Made by a program: the position numbers and the translations under genes
The notes under the pieces: model-generated
Seen by the model: the letters and a program-made list of their open reading frames with translations, nothing else
Databases searched by the model: none
Told to the model about the DNA's origin: nothing
Part shown: positions 14,005 through 42,149 of the stretch, one piece after another
How the letters are laid out: each line of letters starts with the position of its first letter
How positions within the stretch are numbered: the stretch's first letter is position 1
From: Candidatus Magasanikbacteria bacterium RIFOXYD2_FULL_41_14
GTDB taxonomy: Bacteria; Patescibacteriota; Patescibacteriia; Magasanikbacterales; GWA2-37-8
NCBI GenBank assembly: GCA_001784475.1
Contig: MFRE01000007.1
Location: forward strand, 1-44,528
Direction of reading: 5' to 3'
Length of the DNA: 44,528 nucleotides

Positions 14005-14418
14005 TTATTTACTAAAAACCTTTTCCAAAATAACCTTCAAATCAGCTACTGTTAAATAACTAAAAACTTCCACACCACTATCCCCTTTTATCATTGCCGA
14101 CAATTTATAAGTATTTTCGCCTTTAAATAACCCAACAACGCGCTTTCCTAATGTTGTTGCTTTGGCGATTTCGTATCCAACTCCCAAACTTGGTGCGGTT
14201 AGTTCCGCTACTAACACATCACAATCTGCCACCATCCTTAAATCTCGATCATGAATTTCTTCTTTACTCAAATCCGTCTCTCCAAAATCTGATATTTTTT
14301 CATTCCCTAAAAATGGATTGACGACCTCACCATATCCTTGTAAAATTTTTACGATCTCTTCATAGACAGGTTGCAATTCTCGCCCACCTCGCACGGAAGC
14401 GGCAAAATATATTTTCAT
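14005..14418 (-). CDS. DNPH1-like 2'-deoxynucleoside 5'-phosphate N-hydrolase / nucleoside deoxyribosyltransferase family
   Basis: 137 residues. The N-terminal KIYFAASVRGGRE, the central DRDLRMVADCDVLVAELTAPSLGVGYEIAKA and the following KRVVGLF are typical of the nucleoside 2-deoxyribosyltransferase superfamily, closest to the DNPH1 (Rcl) group, which cleaves deoxynucleoside monophosphates to base plus deoxyribose 5-phosphate. Human DNPH1 removes 5-hydroxymethyl-dUMP. The gene overlaps the TrmB-type regulator by ATGA (14415-14418), so both are made from one message. Its neighbours in the next 4 kb are also nucleotide enzymes. Substrate is not proven from sequence. Confidence 0.85.
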   Translation of the reverse strand: MKIYFAASVRGGRELQPVYEEIVKILQGYGEVVNPFLGNEKISDFGETDLSKEEIHDRDLRMVADCDVLVAELTAPSLGVGYEIAKATTLGKRVVGLFKGENTYKLSAMIKGDSGVEVFSYLTVADLKVILEKVFSK

Positions 14419-15227
14419 ACTAATTTTTCATTAATACTTAACAATGTAATATCAGTTGATTTATCCCAAATATAATCAAACTGCTTTTCTTGCCACTGTG
14501 CCAATGCCACGTCCTCTACCAACAACGCCGATGGCTCGTGGCTGTTATAAGTGGTGTATAGTATTTTACCACTATATATCATAATATCAACCCCGCCAGA
14601 CAAAGTGGATTTTTCCAAACGAAATTGAGTATAATCATTGTAGCTCGTCTTTAACACCAAAGCTCGACTAGCCGGATCATCCGGTAGTAATATTTTGGTT
14701 TTTATTTTTTTAGCAACGCATCTATCCGCAAACATTTCCCTGGCCTCTAATCCAGGTTTTTTATTTTGATCAAACGGACGATATGTTCGAATTACTCCCG
14801 GACGACTTGCCACGACAGCTAAAAGCGCCCGATCATATTCGGCCATACCATCAAAAGTTTTAATACCGGGGCGAGCGCCAGCCAAACGATAGCTACGCCG
14901 CAAATCTGGAATAAGACGACGCAAATGTATCGCATCAGTTGCCACGGCCTGCTCGCGCTGCGACAATAATTCATATAAATGCTCTGGATCAACAGCTCGA
15001 TAAATAGTTCGCCACTTTTCTTTCCGCGCACCCACCAAACCAACCGCCACCAACTGACGCAACAAATAATACAAAAGAGTACGAGGGATATGCGACAAGA
15101 GCTGAAGCTCTTGAGCAGTACCAGGAGCATTTTTTAACATTAAAACATAGAGTTGAGCTTCATGTTCGCCCACCCCCAAAGTACTTAAAATGTTGGTAAT
15201 CTGACTGGGTGATTTTTGTTTTGCCAT
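14415..15227 (-). CDS. TrmB-family transcriptional regulator 1
   Basis: 270 residues. An N-terminal TrmB winged helix (TLGVGEHEAQLYVLMLKNAPGTAQEL...PRTLLYYLLRQLVAVGLVGARKE, about 15-75), a helical linker, and a C-terminal domain (about 115-270) with the phospholipase-D-like fold seen in such regulators (FDGMAEYDRALLAV). It probably binds a small effector. Its promoter overlaps a dyad at 15258-15278, and near-identical sites precede the 62-aa gene and ndk, so it may control this nucleotide island as well as itself. It is translationally coupled to the DNPH1-like gene. Effector unknown. Confidence 0.88.
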   Translation of the reverse strand: MAKQKSPSQITNILSTLGVGEHEAQLYVLMLKNAPGTAQELQLLSHIPRTLLYYLLRQLVAVGLVGARKEKWRTIYRAVDPEHLYELLSQREQAVATDAIHLRRLIPDLRRSYRLAGARPGIKTFDGMAEYDRALLAVVASRPGVIRTYRPFDQNKKPGLEAREMFADRCVAKKIKTKILLPDDPASRALVLKTSYNDYTQFRLEKSTLSGGVDIMIYSGKILYTTYNSHEPSALLVEDVALAQWQEKQFDYIWDKSTDITLLSINEKLV

Positions 15228-15249: not shown

Positions 15250-15278
15250 TTTATAAGTTGTAAAATATTATTTTACAA
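15250..15278 (-). promoter_or_regulatory. trmB1 promoter with embedded dyad operator (site 1)
   Basis: Minus-strand TTGTAA (15273-15278), 17-base spacer, TATAAA (15250-15255). The dyad TTGTAAAA / TTTTACAA (arms 15258-15265 and 15271-15278, 5 bp apart) covers the -35 box and most of the spacer, the layout of an autorepressed gene. Confidence 0.75.
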
Positions 15279-15346: not shown

Positions 15347-15366
15347 TGTAAAATAGTTCTTTACAA
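15347..15366. promoter_or_regulatory. TrmB-like operator, site 2
   Basis: TGTAAAATAGTTCTTTACAA matches 17 of 20 positions of site 1 (TGTAAAATATTATTTTACAA, 15259-15278). It lies upstream of the 62-aa gene, about 93 bases before that gene's -10-like TATAAT. Confidence 0.6.
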
Positions 15367-15458
15367 AATCTTTGGCCGGTCTGTTGTTGTTTTCACATTG
15401 AAAAATATCTCCCTACAAGACATAGCTCCAGATGTAAACAATGACAGGTCGGCTAAGG

Positions 15459-15464
15459 TATAAT
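15459..15464 (+). promoter_or_regulatory. -10 box before the 62-aa gene
   Basis: A perfect TATAAT, 23 nt before the ATG at 15488. No good -35 box is at the normal distance; the start is preceded by an AAGAGG ribosome binding site (15478-15483). Confidence 0.45.
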
Positions 15465-15487: not shown

Positions 15488-15676
15488 ATGAAGAAGAAAA
15501 CGGGGGAAAAAGAACTGGTCGAACCGTCGAAGGCCGCCCCCCTGCCATGGGGGAAAAGATGGAAAAGGGTGCTTGTAATTGACCCAAAGGCTGAACGAAT
15601 TGATCTCGATCTTTTTGGGCAAGAGGCCCAATACAAGATCATGTACAAGATGGTCGACGACGACGTCGAAAAATAG
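15488..15676 (+). CDS. Small protein of unknown function in the high-GC block
   Basis: 62 residues, charged, no signal peptide or membrane segment (KRWKRVLVIDPKAERIDLDLFGQEAQYKIMYKMVDDDVEK). A TATAAT box and an AAGAGG ribosome binding site precede the ATG, and the codon use is GC-rich like ndk next door and unlike flanking genes, all supporting a real gene. The stop is followed by structured repeat A. I do not recognise a family. A small binding partner or regulator is possible but unsupported. Confidence 0.5.
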   Translation: MKKKTGEKELVEPSKAAPLPWGKRWKRVLVIDPKAERIDLDLFGQEAQYKIMYKMVDDDVEK

Positions 15677-15682
15677 CTATGG

Positions 15683-15782
15683 CACACATCCTACCTCCGG
15701 GGGCAAGGGTGGTGTGTAAGTTAACAGCAACATGCCCCCTCCCTAATTTATTGCCTAAGTTAATTGGACAATGGATTAGGAG
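15683..15782 (+). repeat. Structured repeat A (downstream of the 62-aa gene)
   Basis: About 100 bases sharing ordered blocks with repeat B at 16881-16981: GGGGGCA, GGGTGGTGTGTAAG, CAACATGCCCCCTCCC, GCCTAA and TTGGAC. GGGGGCA (15699-15705) can pair with TGCCCCC (15733-15739); separately, ACACA.CC.ACC (from 15684) can pair with GGT-GG-TGTGT (to 15717) with the GGGGGCA in its loop, giving a possible H-type pseudoknot. The right end carries TTGGAC, used in a promoter-like arrangement for ndk. Confidence 0.75.
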
Positions 15783-15800
15783 GAATATAGTTCTTTACAA
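15764..15800 (+). promoter_or_regulatory. Promoter and TrmB-like site 3 ahead of ndk
   Basis: TTGGAC (15764-15769), 16-base spacer, TATAGT (15786-15791). The -10 lies inside a 20-mer (15781-15800) that matches site 2 at 16 of 20 positions, with the right half identical (ATAGTTCTTTACAA). Confidence 0.55.
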
Positions 15801-15933
15801 ATAACTACTTGGTGCCAATAACTTTTGCATGTCCGTGATTTTTTCTTAGTTTAAAGAAAGAAGCATGGACATGCCAACGGTAAGTTCGTCATGGTGACGA
15901 CAAACCGAAAGGCGCAACCAGGAAGGAAAAGTC
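15801..15933 (+). promoter_or_regulatory. Structured 5' leader of ndk
   Basis: About 130 untranslated bases with two hairpins. The first pairs GCATGTCC (15827-15834) with GGACATGC (15867-15874), with inner pairing of TTTCTT and AAGAAA to give a stem of roughly 20 bp. The second pairs TCGTCA (15886-15891) with TGACGA (15895-15900). An AGGAAGGA ribosome binding site follows (15920-15927). This may be a riboregulator; no known riboswitch class is recognised. Confidence 0.5.
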
Positions 15934-16353
15934 ATGGCAAGGTGTCGCACCCTGGCGCTGATCAAACCTGACGGCGTGAGCCGCGGACTGATCGGCAAGG
16001 TCATAGCCCGCATCGAAGACGCCGGACTCCGCATCCTCCAGCTGCAGATGAAACACGTCACGAAGCAAGAGGCGGAGGTGTTCTACGGTGCCCATCGCGG
16101 ACGCCCGTTCTACGACGCGCTCACGGAATTCACCGCGGCAGCTCCTCTGGTCGCACTCGTCATCGAGGGAGATGACGCCGTGACAAAGTGGCGCGCCATG
16201 ATGGGCGCCACCGACCCCGCCAAGGCCGGAGTCGGAACGATCCGTGGGGATTTCCGGGAGAAAGGAGCCCCGATGATGCGAAATGTCGTACACGGAAGCG
16301 ATTCGGAGGGTTCCGCTACCAACGAGATCGGGCTGTTCTTCCCCGTCCGGTAG
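15934..16353 (+). CDS. ndk: Nucleoside diphosphate kinase
   Basis: 139 residues, the usual length. TLALIKPDGVSRGLIG with Lys11, Tyr51 in FYGAHRGRPFY, MGATDPAKAGVGTIRGDF, and the catalytic His120 in NVVHGSDS are all present. NDK moves the gamma phosphate from ATP to other (d)NDPs through phospho-His, so it completes synthesis of any (d)NTP. GC content and codon choice are far above the flanking genes, and the ribosome binding site is strong, pointing to transfer from a GC-rich donor. It is followed 44 nt later by a dUTPase-like gene, then by structured repeat B. Confidence 0.95.
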   Translation: MARCRTLALIKPDGVSRGLIGKVIARIEDAGLRILQLQMKHVTKQEAEVFYGAHRGRPFYDALTEFTAAAPLVALVIEGDDAVTKWRAMMGATDPAKAGVGTIRGDFREKGAPMMRNVVHGSDSEGSATNEIGLFFPVR

Positions 16354-16397
16354 TACCACAACGAACCGGCCAGAAAAAATGGCCACCGGAGTCAGCG

Positions 16398-16880
16398 ATG
16401 AAGTTCAGATTCAGTATCCACCCCGAAGCGAAGGCGCGCGGCGCGCACCTTCCGAACAAGAAGCACCCCAGCGATGTAGGCTGGGACATCTACCCGGTGG
16501 AGGAATTCACTGTCCTTCCCGGACAGGTGGCGTCGTTCGCGACCGGACTGACCTTCGTGGCCCCTCCTGGGTGGTACCCCGAGGTCGTGGCAAAAACGGG
16601 GAACGCCTACAAGCGGCAGGTGGTGCCGGCCGCGGTCGTGTACGATCCGGATTATCGCCCGGATCCCAACGACCCGCGCGGTTCGATCTTCTCGGTCATT
16701 AACCTGGGGAAGGAACCCCAGACGTTCCGGCTGGACCAAGCGCCGGTCCAACTCATTCTCCGGCCGGTCTGTGAGGCAATGTCGTTTGAGGTCCACCACG
16801 GGGACATCGACCACAACACGGAGCGCGGCGGTGAACGCTACGGCGTGGCAGACGGAGAGCCGGACCCGTTCGCCGCGTAG
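16398..16880 (+). CDS. dUTPase-like / dCTP deaminase-fold protein (divergent)
   Basis: 160 residues from the ATG at 16398 (GGAG 8 nt upstream). The order of blocks is that of trimeric dUTPases: DVGWDI (26-31, for DAGYDL), TGLTFVAPPGWYPEVVAKTG (for the RSG block), VVYDPDYR (81-87, for GVIDxxYRG), QAPVQLILRPV (for RIAQL...P) and RGGERYGVADG (143-153, for RGxxGFGSTG). Several catalytic blocks deviate, including Thr for Ser in the second, so nucleotide specificity may have shifted. It would hydrolyse dUTP or a modified dUTP to the monophosphate. Codon use is GC-rich like ndk. An alternative is a dCTP-deaminase-like relative. Confidence 0.78.
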   Translation: MKFRFSIHPEAKARGAHLPNKKHPSDVGWDIYPVEEFTVLPGQVASFATGLTFVAPPGWYPEVVAKTGNAYKRQVVPAAVVYDPDYRPDPNDPRGSIFSVINLGKEPQTFRLDQAPVQLILRPVCEAMSFEVHHGDIDHNTERGGERYGVADGEPDPFAA

Positions 16881-16981
16881 CACAACATCACTCTCCTCTG
16901 GGGGCAGGGTGGTGTGTAAGATTTTTACAACATGCCCCCTCCCCTATTGATCGCCTAATTTATTTGGACGATGAAGTGGGA
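16881..16981 (+). repeat. Structured repeat B (downstream of the dUTPase-like gene)
   Basis: Homologue of repeat A with the same order of conserved blocks. GGGGGCA (16900-16906) can pair with TGCCCCC (16933-16939) at almost the same spacing as in A (33 against 34). CATCAC (16885-16890) can pair with GTGGTG (16909-16914) around it. Intervening bases vary while the paired blocks remain, which suggests RNA or DNA structure is kept. Its right end abuts the promoter of the HD-domain gene. Confidence 0.75.
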
Positions 16982-16999
16982 AAAAATTAATTTTTGTGG

Positions 17000-17676: not shown

Positions 17677-18594
17677 ATGAAACCAATTTTATCTCCCGCG
17701 TCCACGCGGGATTTTTTTAATTTTATTTACGAACGTCAATTAATTTGGTATAAACGCCATGTTTTAAAATTGCCCTCACCATGGACTGCCGACCCGATAA
17801 TGCAAAAATATAAATTTTGTAATATGTATCGCGAATTAGATCGCTGTACTATTTATTTACTGACGCGCTTACAGCCGATTAAAGCGCGCCCCTGGCAATT
17901 ATTTAATATAATTTTATTTCGTTTTTTTAATCAAGACAAAATTTTTGAACAACTGAGCGGACCGTTTACGCGTTTTGAACAAACGGAAGCCAACGAATGT
18001 AAGGCACGCTTGGATAAATTAAAAAAATCCGGTCAAACAATTTTTAACAACGCCTATATTATTGCTCCCGCCCCTGGGTTTATGAGCAAACACGCGGGCA
18101 TCATCGCCAATCTAAAAAAAATATCCAGTCAACTGGCCAAACTGACTGAGCGACTGGATAAAGCCGACGCGCCGGCGGACGCTTTCATCGTCCTGCGCGG
18201 TTTGCCCCAAGTCGGGCCATTTTTAGCGGGAGAAATTTGGACAGATTTAAGTTATCTGAAATTTTTTAAACAAAACTGGACGGACGATGATTTTACGACC
18301 GTTGGTCCGGGCGCGCTCTGGGGGTTAAAAATTTTGAGTGGGTTGTCCCGCCTATCACCGGTGCGTCAGAACGAAATTTTACAATATTTACACCAAGCCC
18401 AACGAAAAATTTTGCCCAAAATATTTTCCGACGTAACCGATAATTTAAATTGGAATGACATCGCCTACCGGCCGGCGTTTTCTAACGCCCCATGGTTATC
18501 ATTAACAAATATTGAAGGCGCGCTGTGCGAATTTAGAAAATACACTAATTTAAAAAACGGCCATGGGCGCAGACGATATTTTAAAAATAACTAA
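17677..18594 (+). CDS. Protein resembling the 5-hmdU DNA kinase helical / aGPT-pyrophosphorylase family
   Basis: 305 residues, mostly helical, no signal peptide. The N-terminal block FNFIYERQLIWYKR (14-27), PWTADPIMQKYKFCNMYREL (35-54) and the following DR, then LRGLPQVGPFLAGEIWTDL (about 173-191) and FTTVGPGALWGLKIL, recall a family described by Aravind and colleagues in phage DNA-base hypermodification (5-hydroxymethyl-dU kinase helical domain, alpha-glutamyl/putrescinyl thymine pyrophosphorylase). The central GLPQVGPF looks helix-hairpin-helix-like, as in DNA glycosylases. Role inferred: acting on a modified pyrimidine in nucleotide or DNA. My recognition is from memory, so treat the function as tentative. 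Co-directional with the HD gene; a strong terminator follows. Confidence 0.6.
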   Translation: MKPILSPASTRDFFNFIYERQLIWYKRHVLKLPSPWTADPIMQKYKFCNMYRELDRCTIYLLTRLQPIKARPWQLFNIILFRFFNQDKIFEQLSGPFTRFEQTEANECKARLDKLKKSGQTIFNNAYIIAPAPGFMSKHAGIIANLKKISSQLAKLTERLDKADAPADAFIVLRGLPQVGPFLAGEIWTDLSYLKFFKQNWTDDDFTTVGPGALWGLKILSGLSRLSPVRQNEILQYLHQAQRKILPKIFSDVTDNLNWNDIAYRPAFSNAPWLSLTNIEGALCEFRKYTNLKNGHGRRRYFKNN

Positions 18595-41108: not shown

Positions 41109-42149
41109 TTGCTGATTCGTAGAAGCAGGGCCGCTGCCCTGCACCTAAAACGCGGTATTATGAATTTCGTCCGAGGGCGCGTCCTTGGTCGAGAATTCAT
41201 TTTGCCGTTCACGGCGGTGTACCATCTCAACTTGAGGTGTAATTCGCAATGTTCCTGGTGTAGCCGGGAAGAAGACATGCGCTTGCATCATTCGGGCGGA
41301 GTGGACATCACCAAGGTCGAAACCATTTTGCGCGCAGTTAGGCGTCTCACGCCTTCGCTTTACATCGCCGGTGGTGAACCGACGCTGGAAGCGAATGTCA
41401 GCGAGGTTCTGAAACTCGCACGCAATCTTGGTTTTTGGCCGATTGTTCTTAACACCAATGGCACACTTCTGGACAGGAGACCAGAAGTGGTGCAACTTGC
41501 CGACCGAATTATCGTCAGCTTGCATGCCGACACACCGGCAAAACAGGCGGCGATTCTGCGCGTCAATCCGGCACTCGGGCAAAAGGTCTTCGATAACTTG
41601 CTTTGGGCGGCTCGCACCACTGGCCGTGTCGCGGTCAACTGCGTTCTCACCCAGGACAACATCGAAGACGCGCACGGCGTATTGGCGTTCTGTTTGGCGC
41701 ACAATATACCGTTCGCGGTGGTGCCAGCAGTGGTTGGATATCAACCCGCCATTGCCACCGCCAGCCCAGATCGGATAGAAGCGTACCGACAGTTCGTCGG
41801 CAAAGTGATGGAGGCCAAGTCCCAATGGCCACGCGCGGTCGTCGGGACAATGTCGTACCTGCAAAAGGTACAATCTCTTGATGGGTTTGATTGCCGACCT
41901 TCGGGAATCATCACGATTTCCCCGGAGGGAAAAATTGTCAACCCCTGTTCGTTCAAGTACCGCGAGGTACCGCAGACGATTGGGGTGGCAAACGGCCACG
42001 AGTCCATCGAAGTCCAACTTCGCCGTCAGCTCGACTTCAGTGCAACGCACACGAAGTGTCCTGGTGGCAACTGCCTCAAGATGTGCTATGTAGGGCCTGC
42101 TATGGCGCTTGAAACGCCGGCGCAGTCCATACGTGAATTCTTGAGCTGA
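41109..42149 (+). CDS. Radical SAM protein with SPASM-like C-terminal cysteines
   Basis: 346 residues from a TTG at 41109, chosen because AGGAGG lies 4 nt upstream (41099-41104); an ATG at 41160 is the alternative. The CNSQCSWC motif (Cys44, Cys48, Cys51) binds the SAM 4Fe-4S cluster; AGGEPT is the GGE motif; a (beta/alpha)6 barrel follows (LNTNGTLL, IIVSLHADTP). The C-terminal third carries further cysteines (FDCRPSG, NPCSF, KCPGGNCLKMC), suggesting an auxiliary cluster. Substrate cannot be told; peptide- or lipid-modifying enzymes share this design. High GC, balanced codons and a strong ribosome binding site point to recent transfer. No partner gene is next to it. Confidence 0.88.
   Translation: MLIRRSRAAALHLKRGIMNFVRGRVLGREFILPFTAVYHLNLRCNSQCSWCSREEDMRLHHSGGVDITKVETILRAVRRLTPSLYIAGGEPTLEANVSEVLKLARNLGFWPIVLNTNGTLLDRRPEVVQLADRIIVSLHADTPAKQAAILRVNPALGQKVFDNLLWAARTTGRVAVNCVLTQDNIEDAHGVLAFCLAHNIPFAVVPAVVGYQPAIATASPDRIEAYRQFVGKVMEAKSQWPRAVVGTMSYLQKVQSLDGFDCRPSGIITISPEGKIVNPCSFKYREVPQTIGVANGHESIEVQLRRQLDFSATHTKCPGGNCLKMCYVGPAMALETPAQSIREFLS

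Follow-up and report, generated by a model that had tools for sequence, protein, structure and literature searches.

Two structured 3′ elements in a nucleotide-metabolism locus of a Magasanikbacteria genome are probably diverged members of an order-wide gene-end module

Phage morons are single genes of deviant composition that carry their own promoter and terminator, and the uptake sequences of Neisseria and Haemophilus place a conserved sequence in terminator hairpins, in hundreds of copies per genome. The arrangement described here resembles both. It shares with morons the deviant single genes with their own promoter and terminator, but the genes lie in a bacterial chromosome and have a common conserved 3′ module; it shares with uptake sequences a conserved sequence within a terminator hairpin, but this sequence, a hairpin termed P3, occurs in at most approximately five copies per genome. 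Integron attC sites are likewise structured 3′ appendages on unrelated genes, and the P3 tip, YYYAA..TTRRR, recalls their R″ and R′ boxes. In P3, however, the boxes are located at the tip with a loop of 3-8 nt, pairing extends beyond the crossover, and there is no nearby integrase. Canonical members of the P3 family are like intrinsic terminators in having compensating stems and a U-run right behind the gene; they differ in the sequence-conserved P3 nested inside, and three members of the family (A, B, and C) have neither the stem nor the U-run. Finally, some modules are similar to the RAPP/RGPP arrest peptides ApcA, ApdA, and ApdP in that a very short, Shine-Dalgarno-led ORF has R-[AG]-P-P as its C-terminal motif (PMC12992588, PMC10951233, PMC7897499). 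The peptides described in these papers are encoded upstream of the regulated gene, whereas the ORFs found here are located downstream, in the 3′ UTR, and have 8-9 codons.

The stretch of DNA analyzed here (the window; 44,528 nt) comes from Candidatus Magasanikbacteria bacterium RIFOXYD2_FULL_41_14 (genome G000). A high-GC block at 15.4-17.0 kb adjoins a minus-strand regulator gene and a nucleoside 2-deoxyribosyltransferase-like gene (Table 1). The original prediction of a two-copy repeat, each copy following a cargo gene unit, agrees with what was found: elements A and B constitute a 96-nt direct repeat, 75% identical at a spacing of 1200 nt, and their starts lie 8 and 2 nt, respectively, past the stop codons of the 62-aa ORF and the dUTPase gene, the latter of which follows the NDK gene. 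The start-to-start distances between GGGGGCA and TGCCCCC, 34 nt in A and 33 nt in B, were also as predicted. The motif TTGGAC, described earlier as lying near the right end of each copy, is present at 15764-15769 (A) and 16964-16969 (B), but it is part of the tip of the long hairpin P3 and not a separate right-end box. In shuffle tests, A folded better than 199 of 200 shuffled sequences (z −2.6), and the folding of B was weaker (z −1.6). Searches of G000, for which the sequence coverage was approximately 95% or more (as it was for the relative G022), detected A and B alone as full copies of the repeat, and a structural scan of G000 for the P3 tip returned A plus one weak match only. No description of these elements was found in the literature available without subscription.

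Table 1. Positions of the elements, genes, and flanking sequences of the high-GC block in the window
Feature	Position	Strand	Remarks
Nucleoside 2-deoxyribosyltransferase-like gene	14005-14418	−	adjoins the regulator gene in G013 too
TrmB-type regulator gene	14415-15227	−	divergent; 44% orthologue at the corresponding place in G013
15-bp direct repeat, copy 1	15353-15367	+	ATAGTTCTTTACAAA; before unit 1; right part of a TGTAAA-N7-TTTACA palindrome (15347-15365)
Sigma-70-like promoter of unit 1	15435-15464	+	TAAACA-18-TATAAT
Cargo 1	15488-15676	+	62-aa ORF without family match; GC3 60%
Element A	15684-15783	+	P1 hairpin, pseudoknot-capable strands, P3 hairpin
A: P1 hairpin	15684-15717	+	ACACA-t-CC-t-ACC / GGTGGTGTGT; stem covaries with copy C of G013
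A: GGGGGCA	15699-15705	+	in P1 loop; 5′ strand of putative pseudoknot stem; invariant in A, B, and C
A: TGCCCCC	15733-15739	+	3′ strand of putative pseudoknot stem
A: P3 hairpin	15742-15780	+	tip CTAA-GTTAA-TTGGA; core common to the order-wide family
15-bp direct repeat, copy 2	15787-15801	+	ATAGTTCTTTACAAA; directly after element A
5′ hairpin before cargo 2	15827-15874	+	GCATGTCC..GGACATGC; G013 counterpart GCCAGCCC..GGGCTGGC
Cargo 2a, nucleoside diphosphate kinase (NDK)	15934-16353	+	GC3 75.5%, 99.9th percentile of the genome
Cargo 2b, dUTPase	16398-16880	+	GC3 80%, top among the ORFs of the genome
Element B	16882-16983	+	
B: P1 hairpin	16882-16917	+	ACA-a-CATCACTC / GGGTGGTGTGT
B: GGGGGCA	16900-16906	+	in P1 loop
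B: TGCCCCC	16933-16939	+	
B: P3 hairpin	16942-16980	+	tip CTAA-TTTAT-TTGGA

With a covariance model made from A and B, a third copy, C, was detected in G013 (E-value 6.5e-10), a genome from a different genus of the same Magasanikbacteria family. C starts 2-3 nt past the stop codon of a 251-aa GC-rich ORF unrelated to the window cargo; a resemblance of this ORF product to MazG, seen by eye, had no profile support. The C locus is equivalent to that of the window, with orthologous TrmB and nucleoside deoxyribosyltransferase genes adjoining it. In the alignment of A, B, and C, 6 of the 30 pairs were changed on both sides, compared with 2.4 in shuffles, and 92% of the cells were paired, compared with at most 49% in slid controls. 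The stem ACACA/TGTGT of P1 in A is replaced by CGGA/TCCG in C, and four pairs of P3 show double-sided changes. One of the readings first offered for A and B, that of a 3′ regulatory RNA, is supported, as is the existence of further copies with covariation. That A and B act as RNA is also suggested by their location 3′ of the gene and on its strand and by the compensation in the stems. A BLASTN search with B against 57 relatives gave chance-level matches only, and in the more distant relative G056 the regulator gene and a divergent low-GC gene are present with no element visible. Among 85k genomes, the pattern GGGGGCA..TGCCCCC matched only G013 and two unrelated sequences, to which the model gave a poor score or none. 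Matches of model R1 in G083 and G073 were chance-like, and those of model R2 (see below) in G272, G248, G005, and G044:C1 were coding or unconvincing.

The P1 loop of all three copies contains GGGGGCA, which is complementary to the downstream TGCCCCC, and the seven pairs are invariant. The elements had been called pseudoknot-capable. The geometry is indeed sound for the H-type (a 7-bp second stem, an L2 of 0-1 nt, and an L3 of 15 nt) and both strands are unchanged in the three copies, but there is no covariation and the energies do not clearly favor this pairing, the pseudoknot being close in energy to competing folds in which P1 has an inner stem. Covariation is silent on the pseudoknot because its seven pairs never vary. 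Judging from the modeled geometry, A, B, and C may form an H-type pseudoknot. The availability of alternative folds (P1 with an inner stem, the pseudoknot, and a nested stem), as well as the fact that the genes neighboring A and B all belong to nucleotide metabolism, would suit riboswitch-like 5′ leaders of the next gene, namely NDK-dUTPase after A and the HD deoxynucleotidase gene after B. This reading is very improbable, since only a convergent gene is located downstream of C, which excludes a leader role for that copy, a TATAAT hexamer lies between B and the HD gene, and no family of Rfam 15 matched the elements at its gathering score.

When 25 genomes of the family were searched sensitively with R2, the model built from A, B, and C only, the weak matches shared P3; in G020, G024, and G022 they followed GC-rich genes, and in G013 and G019 they lay beside such genes. 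A P3 model of ten such hairpins, with 93.9% of the cells paired, showed a covariation of 0.46 compared with 0.26 in shuffled alignments, and none of 500 shuffles reached the observed value. This model matched 17 of the 86 genomes of the order, G000 and G013 included, and beyond A, B, and C approximately 22 further P3 copies were found in 15 other genomes. A, B, and C belong to the training set of the P3 model; R2, which contains these three alone, finds other copies independently. The alignments of R2 and R3, the latter derived partly from R2 matches, were small, had been hand-padded with knowledge of the structure, and were given a short calibration, and this hand-padding favors the stated pairs. 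A few of the listed matches (G066:C5, G023:C11) were left out of the module set as coding or atypical. The modules have a common architecture consisting of a GC-rich ORF, its stop codon, a segment with hairpin P1, an outer stem around P3, and a U-run, the distance from the stop codon to P3 being mostly 42-105 nt. The GC-rich cargo ORFs are almost all unrelated, with only three related pairs among 24 proteins, and among their very different matches are an enzyme of the nucleoside-phosphorylase type, a histidine phosphatase, and a protein with a metal-binding motif. Their GC3 values are at least at the 98th percentile in G022 and at the 99-100th in G000. P3 hairpins with similar stems (CTCGAYTKA..) were also observed in G013 (C7:14352 and 14769; L218/L235) and G019 (C25; L225); in both genomes one precedes a GC-rich gene, and in G013 one follows that gene as well, so that P3 can occur on the 5′ side too.

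Outside A, B, and C, 20 of the 21 modules with defined cargo have an outer compensating stem of 11-21 bp that encloses P3 and is followed by a U-run, and from these features the 20 are clearly predicted to be intrinsic terminators. A, B, and C agree with the definition of the gene-end module, in which a GC-rich ORF and its stop codon are followed by a P3 hairpin with the tip YYAA..TTGGA, and neither a qualifying outer stem nor a U-run was found when these three copies were tested as terminators. It could be argued from this difference that ordinary intrinsic terminators were acquired together with the genes, that P3 is no more than a terminator core of shared ancestry, and that A and B are functionless decayed terminators. 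We regard this as rather unlikely, because P1, P3, and both pseudoknot strands persist in A, B, and C, which come from two genera and show compensatory changes, the tip CTAA..TTGGA is retained while the stems vary, and the R-x-P-P micro-ORFs described below are enriched. At orthologous sites of G020, G022, G024, and G008, the outer stem drifts with compensation and the P3 tip, TTTCTAAA..TTTGGARATA, is mostly kept. Such conservation of the tip suggests that something binds it, perhaps a protein.

At least six P3 modules and a related module of G044 contain a Shine-Dalgarno-led micro-ORF of 8-9 codons, which is located just past the cargo stop codon and ends in R-[AGS]-P-P beside P1, the 5′ arm of P1 encoding the R-[A/G/S]-P-P motif. 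The peptides are MSARAPPPL, MYARAPPL, MVSIRAPPQ, MPKIRGPP, and MFIRGPPW, and MHKSRSPP in G044. The motif was first spotted by eye and tested afterwards: genome-wide in G022 (871 kb), the micro-ORF pattern occurred at three distinct places, compared with none for eleven permuted motifs. A blind pattern find on contig C15 of G022, MEAIRAPPQ, revealed a new full module with a cargo of GC3 80%, P1, and a terminator containing a P3-like hairpin. Orthologous sites retain R-[AG]-P-P mostly by synonymous change; at one of them, the codons for RAPP differ only synonymously between G020 and G022, and RGPP was found in G024. The motif is absent from most P3 modules. No R-x-P-P micro-ORF was found in A, B, or the rest of G000; A contains an ATG that has no Shine-Dalgarno sequence, in the frame MAHILPPG. 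RAPP and RGPP are robust arrest motifs (PMC12992588, PMC10951233); PMC12992588, whose plotted phyla include Patescibacteria, describes them as particularly robust and as avoided by bacterial proteomes. By analogy with these peptides, ribosomes may stall on the R-x-P-P micro-ORFs. Since A, B, and C have no such ORF, the arrest part is inapplicable to the window.

Several observations favor mobile gene cassettes, in which P3 would be a DNA recombination or transposition signal (attC-like or a subterminal hairpin) and A and B would mark the cassette ends. A single conserved 3′ hairpin accompanies unrelated, compositionally foreign genes; two tandem units are present in the window and in G022:C9; the 15-bp direct repeat lies on both sides of unit 1; several units have promoter-like sequences and a terminator; and the cargo upstream of a common P3 differs between G022 and G020/G024. 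We consider this explanation unlikely. Modules occupy corresponding sites in sister species and drift there with compensation, and the pairing in P3 extends to either side of where the crossover would fall, both of which argue against the integration site proposed originally. The small copy number (at most approximately five per genome) also speaks against cassettes, and the integrase that was to be sought near the repeats is not linked to them: the only two PF00589 recombinases of the genome are encoded on other contigs. Phage, plasmid, and viral collections contained no copy except for one chance match to the P3 pattern, on a viral contig, which falls in a phage coding region. In respect of a mobile cassette boundary, the association of one 3′ module with many unrelated cargos of deviant composition stands, but neither an empty site nor an element end was found; in particular, the comparison of G022 with its sisters gave no clean empty site. 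A cassette-like history is nevertheless conceivable, because unrelated cargo precedes the common P3 in G022 and in G020/G024. Neither the dUTPase nor the 251-aa cargo of G013 gave a match in searches of phages and viral contigs, and the dUTPase homologues found in the phylum lie outside GC-rich islands.

That A and B are not classical attC sites, as had been stated, is borne out by the pairing of P3 across the would-be crossover, the short loop, and the lack of a nearby integrase. The candidate boxes are GCCTAAG..ATTGGAC in A and GCCTAAT..TTTGGAC in B, and the letters beside the core deviate from R″ (RYYYAAC) and R′ (GTTRRRY). In attC, the boxes would be expected at the base of the fold; those of A and B sit at the tip of a hairpin, the loop of which is only 5-6 nt long in all three copies.

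No promoter was found before unit 2 (NDK-dUTPase). The presence of a promoter for unit 1 only and the gene order agree with co-transcription through A without proving it. Between the TrmB-type regulator gene and the cargo, TGTAAA-N7-TTTACA palindromes were observed in both genera (15347-15365 and 15259-15277 in the window; approximately 4305-4323 of L049 in G013); they are likely operators of this regulator. A long 5′-UTR hairpin covaries between unit 2 (15827-15874) and the G013 cargo (approximately 4454-4510 of L049). It starts 32-33 nt past TTTACA, which places it near the expected transcription start if TTTACA is a −35 box. A gene for a protein with the helical domain of 5-hmdU DNA kinase (HMUDK_hel; 17677-18594) adjoins that of the HD-type deoxynucleotidase, and the two possibly form a locus of this Patescibacteria genome for base modification or the nucleotide pool. 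The window also contains a second lone high-GC gene, a radical SAM gene of approximately 56% GC (41109-42149), which has a strong terminator of its own, GCCCGCG-TTTGGAGGAA-CGCGGGC; the terminator loop has a P3-tip-like TTTGGAG, and a P3 hairpin and an R-x-P-P ORF are absent. Further GC-rich genes of G000 are located at L133 (7700-8400, 16650-17050, and 19400-19850), L145 (1-600), and L147 (1950-2450), and several of these scattered genes have TTGACA/TATAAT-like promoters and hairpin 3′ ends without P3.

Overall, A and B are probably structured mRNA 3′-UTR elements, namely diverged members of a gene-end module of the Magasanikbacteria order that are intercistronic and non-terminating in the window. 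The canonical module consists of a GC-rich gene's stop codon, which in some members is followed by a Shine-Dalgarno sequence and a micro-ORF, then P1, and a terminator with P3 in its loop; it would probably delimit the 3′ end of the mRNA and protect it. The ribosome that finishes the cargo gene would re-initiate and, next to P1, stall at R-x-P-P, and the P3-containing terminator would close the transcript, the P3 tip perhaps being bound by a protein. In the window and G013, the outer stem, U-run, and micro-ORF are absent, and TGCCCCC, in place of the 5′ arm of the outer stem, can pair with the P1 loop. Because the termination and arrest parts are missing and P1, P3, and the loop-to-tail complementarity are left, A and B are read as non-terminating 3′ elements. 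In the nucleotide-pool operon beside the TrmB-type regulator gene, they would serve as non-terminating barriers or as processing or stability elements; most likely, and with moderate confidence, they would be barriers to exonucleases or ribosomes.

A more far-reaching version, which we put forward only tentatively and hold to be possible but doubtful, is a new form of 3′-end control in these ultra-small bacteria: their GC-rich genes would have a portable 3′ UTR in which a coupled R-[AG]-P-P micro-ORF parks a ribosome by a terminator that contains a hairpin bound by a protein, and the translation of a gene would thereby set the fate of its mRNA end; at the TrmB locus, the pseudoknot would have replaced the ribosome and the terminator. 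Known arrest peptides are upstream regulators, and R-[AG]-P-P micro-ORFs downstream of genes, linked to a conserved terminator hairpin, would, if true, extend arrest control to mRNA 3′ ends. In addition, the P3 module would provide a sequence handle on the foreign-looking GC-rich genes that are scattered in Patescibacteria genomes.
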